From contig NZ_SNYW01000008.1 in assembly GCF_004363235.1 (NCBI RefSeq), forward strand, positions 496,001 through 560,000: a stretch of DNA of 64,000 nucleotides, read 5' to 3'. Below are positions 21,708 through 29,778 of this stretch, in pieces. Numbering within the stretch: the stretch's first letter is position 1; each line of letters starts with the position of its first letter. This DNA is from Dongia mobilis. GTDB lineage: Bacteria > Pseudomonadota > Alphaproteobacteria > Dongiales > Dongiaceae. The notes beneath the pieces are model-generated. The model was not told where the DNA came from and ran no database searches. It worked only from the letters and a program-made list of their open reading frames with translations. A program made the position numbers and the translations under genes.

Positions 21708-22469
21708 ATGAAACATCGATCACTGTTCCTCAAGCTCCTCTCTGCCCTGATCGTCTTCGGGGCATGGGAGATTGCGGGCAGAATTCCCGTCAGCTATGCA
21801 TTCCCGACCTTTCTGGAGGCGATGCAGGCCCTCCTCGCCATGACGCTGGACGGCACGATCTTCGTCGCCTATGGCGAAACCCTTAAGCCGCTGGTGGTCG
21901 GCGTCGCGATCTCGGCCGTCTTCGGCATCGGCCTCGGCCTATGGATCGGGCTGAGCGAGCGCTTCGACTGGCTGTTCTCGCCGGTCTTCATCGTCATGCA
22001 GGCGGCACCGCTGGCCGCCCTCATCCCGCTGCTGGTGATGGCCTATGGAATCGGCCTGACATCAAAGGTCTTCGTCGTCTGCATCATGGCGATGCCGGTC
22101 ATCGTCCTCAACACCAGCGGGGCGGTCCGCAATACGCCGTCATCGATGAAGGAAATGGCGACCTCGTTCCTGGCCAGCGACCGGGATGTGATCCTGAAGA
22201 TCATCATTCCCGCCGCCTCGCCGGTAATCTTTTCCGGCTTGCGGCTCGGTATTTCAGCCGGGTTCATCGGCGCGATCCTGGCCGAACTCAAGATCACGCC
22301 CACCGGAGTCGGCGACATCATCACCTACAGCCGCTCGATCGCGGACTACCCCAGCATGTATGCGGCGATCTTCTCGATCATCGCGCTGGCTGTCATCTTT
22401 CTGAACGTGCTTGAGCGAGTCGAAAACTTCTTGTTTGCAGGAAACAATCGTGGCTATGCATCAGACTAA
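21708..22469 (+). CDS. ABC transporter permease (SsuC/TauC-like), first subunit
   Basis: About 253 aa, six membrane helices, BPD_transp_1 family. The cytoplasmic EAA loop is EMATSFLASDRDVILKIIIP followed by AASPVIFSGLRLG. The start at 21708 (MKHRSLFLK) has CAGGG upstream; ATG21690 in the same frame is possible. It overlaps the ATPase gene by about 20 nt. A second, different permease gene lies downstream, so the channel is probably a heterodimer, which is less common in this transporter class. Confidence 0.9.
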   Translation: MKHRSLFLKLLSALIVFGAWEIAGRIPVSYAFPTFLEAMQALLAMTLDGTIFVAYGETLKPLVVGVAISAVFGIGLGLWIGLSERFDWLFSPVFIVMQAAPLAALIPLLVMAYGIGLTSKVFVVCIMAMPVIVLNTSGAVRNTPSSMKEMATSFLASDRDVILKIIIPAASPVIFSGLRLGISAGFIGAILAELKITPTGVGDIITYSRSIADYPSMYAAIFSIIALAVIFLNVLERVENFLFAGNNRGYASD

Positions 22470-23256
22470 CAGGTCATTCGATCATCTGCAGGAGATTGTG
22501 CCGCCAAGTGCGGTGTCCGTGCGCAATGTGTCCAAGAGATACAACGACGTCGAGGCGCTGCGCGACCTGTCGCTTGAATTCCCGCGCGGCCAGCTGACCT
22601 CTCTGCTCGGTCCGTCCGGATGCGGCAAGACCACGCTCCTGAAGATCATTGCCGGGCTGATCAAGGCCAATTCGGGCGACGTTGAGGTGAACGGCGTCAA
22701 GGTCGAGGGACCCGGTCCGGACCGTGCATTCGTGTTCCAGGATTTCGCCCTGCTGCCCTGGGCCAACGTGCTCCGCAACGTCGCCTTCGGCCTCGAGCTG
22801 CGGGGTGTTGCCAAATCCGAGCGCGAGGCCATCGCCGAGAAGTATATCAGGAATGTCGGCCTGACCGGGTTCGAGCGCAGCTATCCGCATGAATTGTCGG
22901 GCGGCATGCGCCAGCGCGTCGGCCTGGCCCGCGCCCTGGCGGTGGATGCGCAGGTGCTGCTGCTGGACGAGCCGTTCTCCGCGGTGGATGAACAGAACCG
23001 CCGCAAGTTCCAGGAGGACATGCTGGCCCTCGTGCAGAACGAAAAGAAGACCTTCATCTTCGTGACCCACTCGATCGAAGAAGCGGTCTATGTATCGGAT
23101 CAGATAGCGGTGCTCCTGCCCCGGCCGAGTCGCGTCTCGGAAGTGATCCGGCCGACCAGCTTCCGCAACAAGGATGCGGTCAACATCCGCCGCGACCCGG
23201 AATATCTGGACATCATCGACCGGATCTGGGCGTCGCTGCGCAACTACGTGGAATAG
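22450..23256 (+). CDS. ABC transporter ATP-binding protein (SsuB/TauB-like)
   Basis: A 268-aa ATPase with all motifs intact: Walker A GPSGCGKTTLLK, Q-loop VFQDFALLPW, signature LSGGMRQRVGLARAL, Walker B VLLLDEPFSAVDE and switch His in VTHSIEEAV. The start is uncertain: GTG22450 has AGGA 7 nt upstream, ATG22456 is two codons later, and both lie inside the permease gene. It energises the importer formed with the two flanking permeases and the periplasmic protein at 20651. Confidence 0.94.
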   Translation: MAMHQTNRSFDHLQEIVPPSAVSVRNVSKRYNDVEALRDLSLEFPRGQLTSLLGPSGCGKTTLLKIIAGLIKANSGDVEVNGVKVEGPGPDRAFVFQDFALLPWANVLRNVAFGLELRGVAKSEREAIAEKYIRNVGLTGFERSYPHELSGGMRQRVGLARALAVDAQVLLLDEPFSAVDEQNRRKFQEDMLALVQNEKKTFIFVTHSIEEAVYVSDQIAVLLPRPSRVSEVIRPTSFRNKDAVNIRRDPEYLDIIDRIWASLRNYVE

Positions 23257-23264
23257 AGGTCGAG

Positions 23265-24017
23265 ATGACGGTTTTCGGTCTCAGGCTGCCAGGCATGTCG
23301 TCGCTCATCCTCTGGGCGCTGCTGTGGGAGGTCGTCGGTCGCAGCGGCCTGACCTTCTTCATACCGCCGATCTCCGAGGTCTTCCTGACGCTGTTCGGCA
23401 TTATCGGGACGCCGGCTTTTACCAAGGCGCTGACCGAGACCGGCTATGCCTTCATCGGCGGTGTCGCCGCGTCGATCGTGATCGGCATCCCGGTGGGCAT
23501 CCTGATCGGCAAGAACCGGCTGCTGGACGAGATGATCCTGCCCTGGGTCAACATTTTCCTCAGCGCGCCGTTGACGGCACTGGTGCCGGTCCTGATGGTT
23601 CTCTTCGGCTTCGGCATGACGTCGATCGTCATCACGACGACACTGTTCGCGATCTGGATCATCATCCTCAACACGCGGGCGGGGGTCATGCAGATCAACC
23701 GATCCATGGTCGAGATGGCACGCAGCTTCGGCGCCAAGCCGCTGGAGGCCTTCTTCAAGATCTACTTCTGGGCGGCCCTGCCCGAAATCCTTGGCGGCGT
23801 GCGGATCGGCGTCATTCGCGCCGTGAAAGGCGTCATCATCGGCCAGCTGCTGATCTCGATCGTGGGTTTTGGTGCGCTGTTCGAGCTCTATTCCTCGAAC
23901 TTCCTTATGTCGCATTTCTGGGCCGTGCTGATCGTGCTGTTCGGCATGGCATTCTCGATCTCGGAATTCCTCGCCTATCTCGAACGTCGCGTGGCCTATT
24001 ACGCGGCCAAGCGATGA
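23265..24017 (+). CDS. ABC transporter permease (SsuC/TauC-like), second subunit
   Basis: A 250-aa protein with about six membrane helices and the EAA loop EMARSFGAKPLEAFFKIYFW. It differs clearly from the permease at 21708 and would pair with it. GAGGTCGAG lies just upstream of ATG23265, which is 8 nt after the ATPase stop. Its last codons (ERRVAYYAAKR) are echoed by a second, imperfect copy just downstream (24044-24082), so the 3' end looks duplicated. Confidence 0.92.
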   Translation: MTVFGLRLPGMSSLILWALLWEVVGRSGLTFFIPPISEVFLTLFGIIGTPAFTKALTETGYAFIGGVAASIVIGIPVGILIGKNRLLDEMILPWVNIFLSAPLTALVPVLMVLFGFGMTSIVITTTLFAIWIIILNTRAGVMQINRSMVEMARSFGAKPLEAFFKIYFWAALPEILGGVRIGVIRAVKGVIIGQLLISIVGFGALFELYSSNFLMSHFWAVLIVLFGMAFSISEFLAYLERRVAYYAAKR

Positions 24018-24082
24018 CGCTCGACAGCGAGGGAGTTTTCCGCGAACAACGCGTCGCATATTACGCAGGAGCAAGAAAATGA
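23982..24082 (+). repeat. Imperfect duplication of the permease 3' end
   Basis: The permease terminates with codons for ERRVAYYAAKR (23982-24017). A second stretch at 24044-24082 reads EQRVAYYAGARK then stop. Each copy ends in ATGA: the first ATG (24014) opens a 22-codon mini-frame that runs through the second copy, and the second ATG (24079) starts the FAH gene. This is either a tail duplication or a leftover from a rearranged permease gene. Confidence 0.6.
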
Positions 24083-24786
24083 CCGCGATGAGTTCCCAGA
24101 TCAGCTATGCGTTCCCGCCGCATGCGGTGCCGCATCTGCCGATCCGCAATTCAACCAGCGTGTTCCCGGTCCATCGCATCTATTGCGTCGGCCGGAACTA
24201 TGCCGATCACGCGATCGAGATGGGCCATGACCCCAACCGCGAGGCGCCGTTTTTCTTCCAGAAAAATCCGGACACGCTGGTGCTCTCGGGCGGCGTATTT
24301 CCCTATCCTGACAAGTCGAACGACGTGCATCACGAGCTTGAGATGGTGGTGGCGCTGAAGTCGGGCGGCAAGGACATCTCCGTGGACAAGGCGCTCGACC
24401 ATGTCTTCGGCTATGCGGTCGGCCTCGACATGACGCGCCGCGACCTCCAGGGCGAGGCAAAGAAGCTCGGCCGACCCTGGGAAGTGGGCAAGGCGTTCGA
24501 GCATTCCGCCCCCTGCAGCGAGATCGTGCCGGCCGCCGACATCGGCCACCCTGCGAAGGGTGCCGTCTGGCTGAAGGTCAACGGCGTGGAGAAGCAGAAG
24601 GGCGATCTCGACCAGCTCATCTGGAAGGTGCCGGAGATGATTGCCTATCTTTCCGGCCTGTTCGAGCTCAAGGCAGGTGATCTCATCTATTCCGGCACGC
24701 CGGCCGGCGTCGGTCCGGTCAAGAAGGGCGACCAGATGCTGGGCGGCGTTGAGGGAATCGGCGAGATCAGCATCAGGGTGGGCTGA
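24079..24786 (+). CDS. Fumarylacetoacetate hydrolase family protein (FAHD1-like), copy 2
   Basis: A 235-aa FAH-family enzyme clearly paralogous to the one at 18977: RIYCVGRNYADHAIEMG, APFFFQKNPDTL, DVHHELEMVVALKSGG, YSGTPAGVGPVKKGD. Metal-binding glutamates (HHELEMV) and the oxyanion GTPAGVG loop are present, so it should be active on an acylpyruvate or related 1,3-diketo acid. ATG24079 follows CAGGAGCAAGAAA. It is transcribed with the importer, which suggests that the imported compound is degraded to an FAH substrate. Confidence 0.93.
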   Translation: MTAMSSQISYAFPPHAVPHLPIRNSTSVFPVHRIYCVGRNYADHAIEMGHDPNREAPFFFQKNPDTLVLSGGVFPYPDKSNDVHHELEMVVALKSGGKDISVDKALDHVFGYAVGLDMTRRDLQGEAKKLGRPWEVGKAFEHSAPCSEIVPAADIGHPAKGAVWLKVNGVEKQKGDLDQLIWKVPEMIAYLSGLFELKAGDLIYSGTPAGVGPVKKGDQMLGGVEGIGEISIRVG

Positions 24787-24939
24787 CCCTGGGGGGCGGT
24801 ACCGGATCCCCGGGCGCTGCCTGGGGATCCTGCCGCACCGCCCGTCGGTTGGAAGTCAAGCGCGGACGGCCGGAGCGGCCGGCACTTGCCGGCAACATCC
24901 GATCGGGTGGATCACGCCGCGCAGATAGCAGGAAATCCA

Positions 24940-25770
24940 TTGTTCGAGACACTGAACGGCGTCGAACTCGCGGCGCTGGCGCTTTCCCTTGCCGTCGTCG
25001 GCTGCTGCTCGGGCTTTCTCGCCGGCCTGCTCGGCGTCGGCGGCGGCATCGTCATCGTGCCGGCGCTGTTCTATGTGTTCGACTTCCTCGATATCGACCA
25101 AGCGATCCGGGCGCATCTCGCCGTCGGAACATCGCTTGCCACCATCGTGCCGACCTCGATCATCTCGCTGCGCGCGCACAGGCAGCGCGATGCGGTGGAC
25201 GGCGCGCTGCTGAGATCCTGGGGGCCGATGGTGACCCTCGGCGTCGTCATCGGCGTCGTCGTCGCCGCCTTCGTCGACGGCAAGGCGCTGACCGGAATCT
25301 TCGGTCTCGTGGCACTGGCCGTCGCCCTCTACATGCTGTTCTCGCTGGAGGGTACGAGCCTCGCCGGCAGTCTGCCGCGCCAGCCCTGGCGATCGCTGCT
25401 CGCGCTGGTCATCGGTGGGATCTCGACCCTGATGGGAATTGGCGGCGGCACCCTGTCGGTGCCGATCCTCTCGCTGTTCAGCTTCCCGCTGCGCCGCGCC
25501 GTCGGCACGGCGGCCGCCATCGGCCTGATCATCGCGGTTCCGGGCACGCTGGGCTTCGTCCTCAACGGCTGGGGTGCCGAGGGTCTGCCACCGTTCTCGC
25601 TGGGCTATGTCAGCCTGGTCGGCTTCGCCGCCATCGTGCCCACTTCGGTACTCTTCGCCCCCTACGGCGCCAGGGCCGCCCACGGCATGCAGGTGGGATG
25701 GCTCCGGAAATGCTTCGCCCTGTTTCTCGGCCTCACCGGGATGAAGATGGTGATGACCCTGTTCGGCTGA
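24940..25770 (+). CDS. Sulfite exporter TauE/SafE family protein
   Basis: About 276 aa with eight or so membrane helices and two internal repeats, each beginning with a GLLGVGGGIVIVPALF or MGIGGGTLSVPILSLF motif, the hallmark of the TauE/SafE (DUF81) family. Family members export sulfite, sulfoacetate or other small organic anions. No ATG fits; TTG24940 has AGGA 6 nt upstream and gives MFETLNGVELAALALS, while TTG24886 or GTG24907 would only lengthen the N-terminus. The link to an SsuA/TauA-like importer hints at sulfonate use, but no desulfonating enzyme is nearby. Confidence 0.88.
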   Translation: MFETLNGVELAALALSLAVVGCCSGFLAGLLGVGGGIVIVPALFYVFDFLDIDQAIRAHLAVGTSLATIVPTSIISLRAHRQRDAVDGALLRSWGPMVTLGVVIGVVVAAFVDGKALTGIFGLVALAVALYMLFSLEGTSLAGSLPRQPWRSLLALVIGGISTLMGIGGGTLSVPILSLFSFPLRRAVGTAAAIGLIIAVPGTLGFVLNGWGAEGLPPFSLGYVSLVGFAAIVPTSVLFAPYGARAAHGMQVGWLRKCFALFLGLTGMKMVMTLFG

Positions 25771-25812: not shown

Positions 25813-27216
25813 TCAGTAACCGCCTTTCCCCGCCGGCTTCACCACCAGCCGGGTAACAACAATGTGCACAAGGCCCGAGATGACCAGCGTCGGCAGGGTC
25901 GCCGTCGTGTAGTCGTAGGGGGCATTGCTGACATAGGTGAGGGGGTTGAGAAGATAGAGATAGGTGGCACAGCCGGCGGCCATGGCCAGCAGGGCCGCCG
26001 GGTTGAAGCCGCCCCAGAAGCGATAAGCGCTGCCCGCGCCGCCCACGAACATGGCGCGGATATCGATACGACGGCCCCGGAGGAAGAAGTAATCCGCGAT
26101 CTGGATCCCGCAGAGCGGGGCGAAGGCCATGCCGATGAACGCCAGGAACGACCCGAAATTGGCGAAGAACAGTTCCGGGATGAAGAGGCCCACCAGCACC
26201 ACCGGCGCGATGGTGATAAGCAGCAGCGCCGGCCAGCGGACCCGGTCGAGGCCGGGGAAATGCCGCAGGCCGATGGCCGAGGCGTAGACGCCCGCAACCG
26301 CGGTGCCGAGATTTGCTGCCGCGACGAACAGCAACGCGACGATCCCATAGGTGGGGCCACCCACCGTGCGCAGCCATTCCGCCGGATCCGAAACCTGCAG
26401 GACCAGGATGCCGGCAATGCCGATGAGCGAGAGCAGCGGTACCGGCGCGCCCATGCCGATCATGATCGGAACCGCCGCCGTGCGCCCCTTCGGCGCCATG
26501 CGCACCATCGCGCCGATATAGGGCCACCAGGAGAGCAGCGAGACGATGCCGATCTCGACGCCGGTCGTATAGTTCCACAGGGGATCGCTGGAGGCATAGG
26601 CCGGCACTGCCGCCTCGATGTCACCCCAGCGCTGGGTCACCAGGATGTAGAGCATCCAGAAGCCGACGAAGACATGGGCCACCAGAATCTTGGCGATGCG
26701 GTCGAGCCCGCCCGAGCCCTTGAGCAGGAACAGGAAGACCAGCACGCAGGCGAGGAAAATGGTCGCCGGCACGATCACGCTGCTCTCGCCATCCGCGATG
26801 ATGCCGAGCGCGATCAGCAGCTGCGTGACGGATTTGGCAAAGAATATCAGCAGCAGGGAATTCCAGCCGACGATCGAGATCTGTTGCATGGCGGCTGGAA
26901 TGATCCAGCCCGAAGTGCCGAACTGCGGCTTCGCCGAGGCGATGGAATCGACCCCGAAGCGGATACAGATTGGCACCGCGGCCAGTGTCACGATCAGCAT
27001 GCCGATCATGGAGCCGGCGAACAGGGCGGCGAAGCCCTGGCCGAAGCCGAGATAATAGCCGACATATTCGCCGATGATGTAGCACCAGGTGGCGGCGGCG
27101 GCCGTCGCCAGGGAAATGCCGAGCTGCCAAGGACCCCAGTTGCGTTCATGTCGCAGCAGCGGCCAGGCGCTCTTGTCGGCTTCAATCTCGATCTGGGTGA
27201 ACGTCGTGTTGGTCAT
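25813..27216 (-). CDS. NCS1-family purine/cytosine permease-like transporter
   Basis: A 467-aa protein with about twelve membrane helices and the LeuT-like NCS1 pattern: WPLLRHERNWGPWQLGISL near the N-terminus, FGVDSIASAKPQFGTSGW and GWNSLLLIFFAKSV. NCS1 carriers take up nucleobases, allantoin or hydantoins with H+ or Na+. ATG27216 is chosen because it overlaps the stop of a 53-aa membrane protein gene (ATGA), rather than GTG/ATG a few codons earlier. It is followed by no catabolic gene on this strand; an aldehyde dehydrogenase lies upstream. Confidence 0.9.
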   Translation of the reverse strand: MTNTTFTQIEIEADKSAWPLLRHERNWGPWQLGISLATAAAATWCYIIGEYVGYYLGFGQGFAALFAGSMIGMLIVTLAAVPICIRFGVDSIASAKPQFGTSGWIIPAAMQQISIVGWNSLLLIFFAKSVTQLLIALGIIADGESSVIVPATIFLACVLVFLFLLKGSGGLDRIAKILVAHVFVGFWMLYILVTQRWGDIEAAVPAYASSDPLWNYTTGVEIGIVSLLSWWPYIGAMVRMAPKGRTAAVPIMIGMGAPVPLLSLIGIAGILVLQVSDPAEWLRTVGGPTYGIVALLFVAAANLGTAVAGVYASAIGLRHFPGLDRVRWPALLLITIAPVVLVGLFIPELFFANFGSFLAFIGMAFAPLCGIQIADYFFLRGRRIDIRAMFVGGAGSAYRFWGGFNPAALLAMAAGCATYLYLLNPLTYVSNAPYDYTTATLPTLVISGLVHIVVTRLVVKPAGKGGY

Positions 27217-27374
27217 GCCAGCCACCCCCAGGCCAGAGCGACCAGCGGCAGGGCCACGCCGAGGAGGGCGAGCCAGAACCAGCTCGACGCGTCGAAATCC
27301 TCCCCCTGGTTTTCGACCGATTCGAGAGCCTTGATGCGGCGCTCCAGCTCGGCCGGTATCGGTGCTGATGCCAA
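27213..27374 (-). CDS. Small membrane protein coupled to the NCS1 permease (53 aa)
   Basis: A short frame not expected from length-filtered gene calling. It starts at TTG27374, 5 nt after a strong GGGGAGG, and reads MASAPIPAELERRIKALES, then an acidic linker (VENQGEDFDASSW) and one membrane helix (FWLALLGVALPLVALAWGWLA). The stop overlaps the permease ATG by the ATGA arrangement, so the two are translationally coupled. An N-terminal amphipathic helix plus one membrane span is typical of small transporter subunits. No family is recognised; it could be an accessory or stability factor for the permease. Confidence 0.7.
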   Translation of the reverse strand: MASAPIPAELERRIKALESVENQGEDFDASSWFWLALLGVALPLVALAWGWLA

Positions 27375-27450
27375 TTGTTCCTCCCCTGTATGCGCGGCAT
27401 CTGGTTCCGGTTCAGTCGACGGCCGCGCGCCGCTGCCGGCTATCGCGGGC

Positions 27451-29031: not shown

Positions 29032-29112
29032 CGCGCAAGCGGATTCGGAGAACCGGGTTTCGCCGGCCGGCGCCGCGTGTTAGGTAGCGATCCCCCGATC
29101 GGAGATGCAATT

Positions 29113-29778
29113 TTGGCCGGAAAAGCGACCACCAGAGCACCCGCCGCCAAGGCAATTGCCGGCGACAAGGGCAAGCCGGCGAAGGCGGTCGCCAAGCTGT
29201 TGCGCTCGGCCCGCGCCGAAAGCCAGGCCTCGGCGCTGGCCGTCGGCGCGCGCCTTCGCACCGTGCGGGAGAAGGCCGGCCTGTCGCAGCGCGAACTGGC
29301 GAAGCGTGCCGGAGTCACCAACGCCACCATCTCGCTCATCGAACAGGAGAGCCACGCACCGTCGCTGGCCTCGCTCCACCGCATCCTCAACGCCATTCCG
29401 ATTTCGATGGCGGAGTTCTTCGCGCTGCCGACCTCGCACAGGAACGTCCTCTTCTACGACAAGGACGAACTTGCCTCGGTGACGCGCGGCGCCGCCGCCC
29501 TCTCGGTGCTGGGCAGCGAGCGACGCGACAAGAAGCTGCAGATGTTCTTCGAGCGCTATGCGCCGGGCGCCGGGACGGGCAACGAACTCATCTCCCATGA
29601 CGGCGAGACCGCGGCGGTCATCGTGCAGGGCGTCGTCGAGATCGAAGTCGACGGCAAGGTGCGGCGCATCGAATCAGGCGGCGGTTTCCAGTTCTTCGGC
29701 AAGCATCCCTACCGCCTCACCAATATCGGCAAGACCACCGCCATCGTCGTCTGCGCGGTGACGCCGTCGATGATCTGA
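29113..29778 (+). CDS. XRE-cupin transcriptional regulator (PuuR-like)
   Basis: About 221 aa. A basic N-terminal tail is followed by an HTH_3 domain: ARLRTVREKAGLSQRELAKR, AGVTNATISLIEQESHAPS. The C-terminal half is a cupin sensor domain (MFFERYAPGAGTG, GETAAVIVQGVVEIEV, GGGFQFFGKHPYRLTN). Proteins of this layout, such as PuuR, repress polyamine or amino acid catabolic genes and are relieved by the substrate. TTG29113 is chosen because GGAGA lies 8 nt upstream; TTG/ATG further up is possible. It is divergent from the aldehyde dehydrogenase, its likely target. Confidence 0.88.
   Translation: MAGKATTRAPAAKAIAGDKGKPAKAVAKLLRSARAESQASALAVGARLRTVREKAGLSQRELAKRAGVTNATISLIEQESHAPSLASLHRILNAIPISMAEFFALPTSHRNVLFYDKDELASVTRGAAALSVLGSERRDKKLQMFFERYAPGAGTGNELISHDGETAAVIVQGVVEIEVDGKVRRIESGGGFQFFGKHPYRLTNIGKTTAIVVCAVTPSMI

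Follow-up and report, generated by a model that had tools for sequence, protein, structure and literature searches.

A one-helix small protein encoded upstream of a clade of NCS1 permeases is a candidate auxiliary transporter subunit

Results

Architecture of the locus

The window, i.e. the whole 64,000-nucleotide stretch of Dongia mobilis DNA analysed here, carries a small gene that runs into the start of an NCS1 permease gene (Table 1). The TTG start of its 53-codon frame (translation: MASAPIPAELERRIKALESVENQGEDFDASSWFWLALLGVALPLVALAWGWLA), the GGGGAGG Shine-Dalgarno sequence and the stop codon overlapping the permease ATG were all found as proposed in the preliminary description, on the minus strand, which that description had not named. 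The TTG start is credible because the orthologues from three genomes of the same genus begin at the same place with an ATG behind a G-rich ribosome site. The three codons for the WGW motif near the end of the protein (27222-27230, minus strand) are rich in G and may also serve as the Shine-Dalgarno sequence of the permease.

Table 1. Positions of the genes and signals in the window
Feature	Position	Strand	Remarks
Small partner gene, 53 aa	27213..27374	minus	start codon TTG 27374-27372 opens the 53-codon frame; stop TGA 27215-27213
Shine-Dalgarno sequence GGGGAGG of the small gene	27380..27386	minus	read in the sequence; spacing to TTG 5 nt
ATGA overlap of small-gene TGA and permease ATG (27216-27214)	27213..27216	minus	read in the sequence
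NCS1 permease, 467 aa, LeuT fold	25813..27216	minus	PF02133 score 61.8 bits, above the gathering score of 23.5; Mhp1 and CodB are the nearest solved folds
Aldehyde dehydrogenase (ALDH), 501 aa	27451..28956	minus	upstream gene; presumed operon ALDH - small gene - permease
Divergent XRE-cupin regulator	29077..29778	plus	best NCBIfam match PuuR, 107.8 bits, below the cut-off of 211
ABC transporter ATPase and permease (by eye), then fumarylacetoacetate-hydrolase family gene	22411-24786		
TauE/SafE family gene	24886-25770		follows the fumarylacetoacetate-hydrolase family gene

The model of the permease (pLDDT 87.8) has the LeuT fold of Mhp1 and CodB, whose entries make up its top five matches among solved structures (Foldseek TM-score 0.75-0.79 by query length, 19% identity). 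SGLT2 of the SGLT2-MAP17 entries is also among the matches, ranked below Mhp1 and CodB.

The 53-aa protein consists of an N-terminal helix with an ELERR motif, an acidic linker and, at the C-terminus, a single membrane helix that carries WGW close to its end. The AlphaFold2 model (mean pLDDT 86.7) places helices at residues 8-18 and 29-52 with the linker between them, in agreement with the two helices and linker described earlier. Across 68 members, the proteins are 48-72 aa long (median 53). The consensus of 58 small proteins reads ELERRxxxLE...QGxDFDxxxWxWLxxLGVVLPxxLLxWGW; L10 is invariant, and E11, R13, E18, W32, G39, P43 and G50 are conserved in at least 90% of them. Four divergent members (L127, L128, L230 and L231) lack the ELERR helix and keep the membrane helix alone.

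In all 68 small proteins, K and R are in excess on the N-terminal side of the membrane stretch (medians 4 vs 0), a side on which the median number of D and E is 7. Since K and R are more numerous there, an N-in/C-out topology is predicted. A head fusion of both chains would be topologically awkward because the C-terminus of the small protein would lie outside the cell and the N-terminus of the permease is expected on the inside, and this may be the reason why the two have remained separate. With starts chosen by script, the small gene and the permease gene overlap by 1 or 4 nt in 38 of the 68 loci, and in 57 the small gene terminates at −5 to +18 relative to the permease start.

Conservation and selection

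Scanning named genomes with a permease alignment yielded 58 loci (50-91% identical) which, by record title, belong to Alpha-, Beta- and Gammaproteobacteria, actinobacteria and one cyanobacterium. The preliminary description had named two tests, conservation of the frame upstream of orthologous permeases and the rate of frameshifts in homologues, and both came out in its favour: the small gene is intact in 57 of the 58 loci, and the frameshift rate is low, with a single frameshifted copy. A script detected the small ORF in 56 loci and the remaining two were read individually. At L090 the gene is present and had been missed since its longest start exceeded the length limit; at L095, from Ancylobacter, the copy is frameshifted. 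A mechanical filter demanding a small ORF with one C-terminal hydrophobic stretch and a stop codon placed −90 to +45 relative to the start was positive at 55 of the 58 related permeases; among 196 other mechanically called ORFs (220 aa or longer) from the same loci, it was positive at one. At L052, the permease frame ends after 42 codons from the chosen start, yet tblastn aligns it over its full length; this points to a frameshift or an assembly error, and the small gene is intact.

In 14 hand-picked pairs of near relatives, dN/dS was 0.04-0.43 for the small gene, every value being below 0.5, and 0.02-0.24 for the permease; the value of the small gene was the higher one in 11 pairs. These ratios indicate that the sequence of the small protein is under selection. 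A search of 61 genomes with the 53-aa protein returned six matches at E<1e-5, all directly upstream of an NCS1 gene, as is a seventh, weak match (E 0.013); no free-standing copy was found at E<1e-5 among these genomes. Both genes occur in five of the seven genomes of the genus, and the other two (G003 and G005) contain no NCS1 match and no credible small gene (best E 6.78 in G003, none in G005). It is near certain that the small ORF is a real protein-coding gene.

The designation of the gene as unannotated held in part for its relatives. The frame is unlabelled in pYKAM101 and in two plasmids with an early stop, but is labelled 'hypothetical protein' in 7 of the 10 plasmid records checked.

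Distribution among NCS1 permeases

A class sample (289 genomes, 32 NCS1 places) supplied 28 fetched genes, with G000, G001, G006 and G026 left out. A phylum sample (397 genomes, 138 NCS1 places) supplied another 92, with G000, G001 and 44 others left out, three of which (all of G305) were already in the class set. Under a strict filter, 4 of these 120 sampled NCS1 genes had a small ORF upstream (L126, L127, L128 and L204) and 3 of the 120 are real cases. These three, L126, L127 and L128, have the best profile scores among the 92 genes of the phylum sample; no small gene was detected by the strict filter among the 28 genes of the class sample. A relaxed filter was positive at 68 of 68 clade loci as compared with 10 of the 120 sampled genes, 7 of which were unrelated by eye. 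The small ORFs at L204 (strict filter) and at L111, L114, L150, L169, L187, L204 and L211 (relaxed filter) were judged by eye to encode unrelated peptides.

A tree was built from 74 of 183 permeases, after a 65% identity cut and with rows shorter than 350 aa, five in number, removed beforehand. On it, the small-gene trait requires one change: all 20 labelled rows fall on one side of a single branch with a support of 99, tree and support both coming from a quick method and L035 and L127 being long branches. With shuffled labels the mean was 17.8 changes, and none of 500 shuffles was as low as one. Labels for the plasmid members (L033-L039) and for L007 were taken from reading the upstream ORF rather than from a similarity score, and L036 was labelled positive despite its truncated copy. 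The 20-row clade holds the window permease together with the MetT-like permease L036, apart from other NCS1 proteins.

In a forward test, clade permeases were sought by profile alone in 247 and 201 further genomes. An upstream ORF with one helix was present at all 12 places found (frames read by eye); 10 of the 12 are new genes, L226 repeating L126 and L224 repeating L063, and several of them are near kin (L220-L222, L227-L229 and L230-L231). By record titles, the small gene and its permease clade occur in Pseudomonadota, Actinomycetota, a cyanobacterium and on a Bacillus plasmid; the upstream position expected for Rhodospirillales thus extends far beyond that order. As judged from these sequences, the small gene goes with the permeases of the clade and is not found upstream of other sampled NCS1 genes. 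The constant co-occurrence with the carrier expected of an auxiliary subunit of a secondary transporter is seen at 57 of 58 and 12 of 12 loci, with exceptions in KHPS1/pMET-2 and in Ancylobacter. Very likely, the small gene is the dedicated partner of one NCS1 clade. The general view that NCS1 carriers work alone, from which the preliminary description had set out, agrees with the other sampled NCS1 clades, all of which are without the small gene.

Genomic neighbourhood

Of 66 loci, 46 have an ALDH match upstream on the same strand, 7 have one in another position and 13 have none, some of the loci being cut by contig ends. Small gene and permease are still together in loci without an ALDH match (for instance L055, L058, L062 and L083), and unrelated enzymes may lie upstream, such as an amidohydrolase (L058), a luciferase-like protein (L063) or an acyl-CoA dehydrogenase (L062). 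An FAD/aminomethyltransferase enzyme resembling dimethylglycine or sarcosine dehydrogenase is matched in 33 of the 66 loci and absent from the window; its Pfam domains were checked in two loci, L079 (15-1730) and L090 (4980-7442). As the small gene persists where both types of enzyme are absent or replaced, the permease is its constant partner. The dimethylglycine/sarcosine-dehydrogenase-like neighbours hint at N-methylated amine substrates and, together with ALDH, appear to point away from nucleobases. The substrates of the clade are probably small cationic or N-methylated amines.

The small gene in MetT-like loci

MetT from Aminobacter sp. NyZ550 is described as an NCS1 transporter that carries metformin and forms a separate NCS1 clade (PMC13390362). 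L036, a MetT-like permease, is a member of the small-gene clade, and a homologue of the small protein, 63 aa long, is encoded at the MetT-like loci L218 and L223. In contrast, MetT was reported as a single protein, and the terms 'small protein' and 'hypothetical protein' do not occur in its main text (PMC13390362).

At L036, from Pseudomonas sp. KHPS1, the permease is intact and a premature stop cuts the small gene off ahead of the membrane helix. Plasmid pMET-2 (L219) is identical to it over the 751 bases compared and has the same truncated small gene, so the two truncations perhaps go back to one event. KHPS2 (L218) shows the converse, an intact small gene and a permease with an early stop. 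Both genes are intact in genome G810 (family f153; L223), whose permease is 91% identical to that of L036 and whose small protein is identical to that of KHPS2 at 54 of 63 positions. The hosts of KHPS1 and pMET-2 are metformin degraders according to the accessible part of PMC9800807. Each of KHPS2, KHPS1 and pMET-2 has one gene or the other broken, although all hosts are reported metformin degraders. Another metformin uptake route besides the MetT-like permease may exist. Among 100 genomes near G337, no MetT relatives were found at E up to 1e-40.

We mapped the published metT deletion onto L036. The left arm starts at position 2175 (exact match of a 21-base primer) and ends at about 2900, where 14 bases of the reverse primer match exactly and the full 28 bases including the joining tail are unmatched. 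The small gene of L036 (2259-2450) lies wholly within this arm, and the complementing plasmid begins at the metT ATG (PMC13390362, accessible text). By this mapping, the small gene seems to have survived the deletion, and MetT may never have been tested alone. If NyZ550 is laid out like L036, the NyZ550 derivatives used for uptake tests still carried the small gene. According to the accessible text of the same report, an uptake trial in E. coli was abandoned because its background was high. MetT-7050 and MetT-1565, two homologues introduced as synthesised metT genes, failed, for which the authors favour changes in the binding site and leave expression possible (PMC13390362).

Discussion

The small protein probably serves a distinct clade of NCS1 transporters as a dedicated auxiliary subunit with a single helix, a reading in which the mechanism is the inferred part. 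Of the dedicated small subunit proposed in the preliminary description, the tight coupling and the dedicated partnership have held (57 of 58 loci, one change on the tree, 12 of 12 places in the forward test), and physical association with the permease is what we infer as the best explanation. Through translational coupling, the two chains would reach the membrane at one site and in matched quantities. The membrane helix at the C-terminus, with W32, G39, P43 and G50, might then pack on the outer face of the scaffold helices of the permease, with the cytoplasmic ELERR helix resting on the membrane surface against its inner loops. In this way, much as MAP17 is proposed to act on SGLT2, the small protein could stabilise the fold or the insertion of the carrier and let it work at its full level.

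Some observations count against this picture. The dN/dS of the small gene exceeds that of its permease in most pairs, and the divergent members do without the ELERR helix. Mhp1 and CodB have been solved as NCS1 carriers, and CodB crystallised as a monomer as far as the accessible part of PMC9379551 describes it. A strict need of the permease for the small protein is doubtful in KHPS1/pMET-2 because the permease is intact there with the small gene cut and the hosts are reported metformin degraders; these truncated copies and the frameshifted one of Ancylobacter count against such a need.

Other explanations account for parts of the same evidence. It is unlikely that the cytoplasmic helix serves as a metabolic tether, recruiting the co-encoded ALDH or another enzyme to the carrier: the frequent upstream ALDH gene (46 of 66 loci) and the exposed N-terminal helix of the AlphaFold2 model would fit, but the small gene persists beside unrelated upstream enzymes (L058, L063 and L062), 13 of the 66 loci have no ALDH match, some of them cut by contig ends, and the N-terminal helix is just the part missing in distant members. 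An inhibitory or gating regulator, which might for example keep the carrier shut until the substrate or the proton-motive force is right, would leave the same genetics as a subunit. KHPS1 and pMET-2, which keep the permease with the small gene cut, look like cases in which losing it is tolerated or even an advantage. However, 57 of 58 loci have kept the gene, more than one would expect for a dispensable brake, and we regard such a role as quite unlikely.

Overlaps of the ATGA/TGATG type in 38 of 68 loci, together with the G-rich WGW codons of the window in the place where a permease Shine-Dalgarno sequence would be, are what one would expect of a translational leader, in which translating the small ORF opens the permease ribosome site and the peptide itself has no role. 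This is very unlikely in view of the selection on the protein sequence (dN/dS) and the conservation of L10, E11, R13, E18, W32, G39 and P43, mostly far from the permease start. Moreover, in 11 of 68 loci a gap of 10-67 nt separates the end of the small gene from the permease, and the membrane helix is encoded all the same; a GW/WG end occurs in 7 of these 11 distant genes vs 44 of 52 near ones. An independent membrane protein that merely happens to be located in the operon is hardly credible, given the single change on the NCS1 tree, the result of the forward test and the fact that every match at E<1e-5 in the 61 genomes sits beside an NCS1 gene.

Small auxiliary subunits of LeuT-fold carriers are already known. 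MetS of MetPS, the NSS methionine importer of C. glutamicum, is about 60 aa long, encoded with its LeuT-fold carrier and needed for uptake. It resembles the 53-aa protein in its small size and in being encoded with a LeuT-fold carrier, but its partner is an NSS carrier. Small membrane proteins of the DUF485, DUF997, DUF3311 and DUF4212 families are encoded beside LeuT-fold SSS symporters (YjcH-ActP, YhdT-PanF and others); most of them have two helices, unlike the one-helix protein described here. Human SGLT2 with MAP17 (PDZK1IP1) offers the likeness of a single membrane helix beside a LeuT-fold carrier, and MAP17 is proposed, in the accessible part of PMC10803289, to stabilise the fixed scaffold of SGLT2. 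It differs in that the carrier is of another family and that MAP17 contacts TM13, which is missing from a 12-helix carrier. A profile search of the PDB gave no sequence link between the small protein and MAP17, the best match (E 0.033) being an unrelated protein. The classical NCS1 proteins Mhp1 and CodB share the fold of the permease; by contrast, the other sampled NCS1 genes come without an upstream small gene.

No Pfam or NCBIfam family matched the 53-aa protein of the window. The 14 Pfam and 8 NCBIfam families matched among the 58 members (best E 0.0013) include neither MetS nor any of the four DUF families. CcmI (11 of 58 members, best E 0.0025), an antitoxin component and a YmiA-like family (one member, best E 0.0013) gave weak matches that we take as chance on short helices. 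A small NCS1 subunit was not found among the matches listed in the literature searched, whose coverage mostly leaves out subscription journals, and the accessible part of PMC7746861 describes no small transporter subunit. The one-helix family and its partnership with NCS1 carriers seem to be undescribed.

More tentatively, and with less than even confidence, the whole NCS1 subfamily might be obligate two-chain carriers for guanidino compounds or N-methylated amines such as metformin rather than for nucleobases. The subunit would be needed for activity and would have been overlooked because deletion and complementation of metT left the small gene in place and because MetT-7050 and MetT-1565 had been introduced without the small partner that belongs to each.

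If the small protein is indeed an auxiliary subunit, a transporter family so far regarded as single-chain would gain a second component, and proteins now entered as 'hypothetical' would receive a family name. Functional or structural studies of the carriers in this clade, among them the metformin transporter, ought then to include co-expression of the small gene, and the failed MetT homologues as well as the uninterpretable E. coli uptake trial of the 2026 paper would become directly testable.
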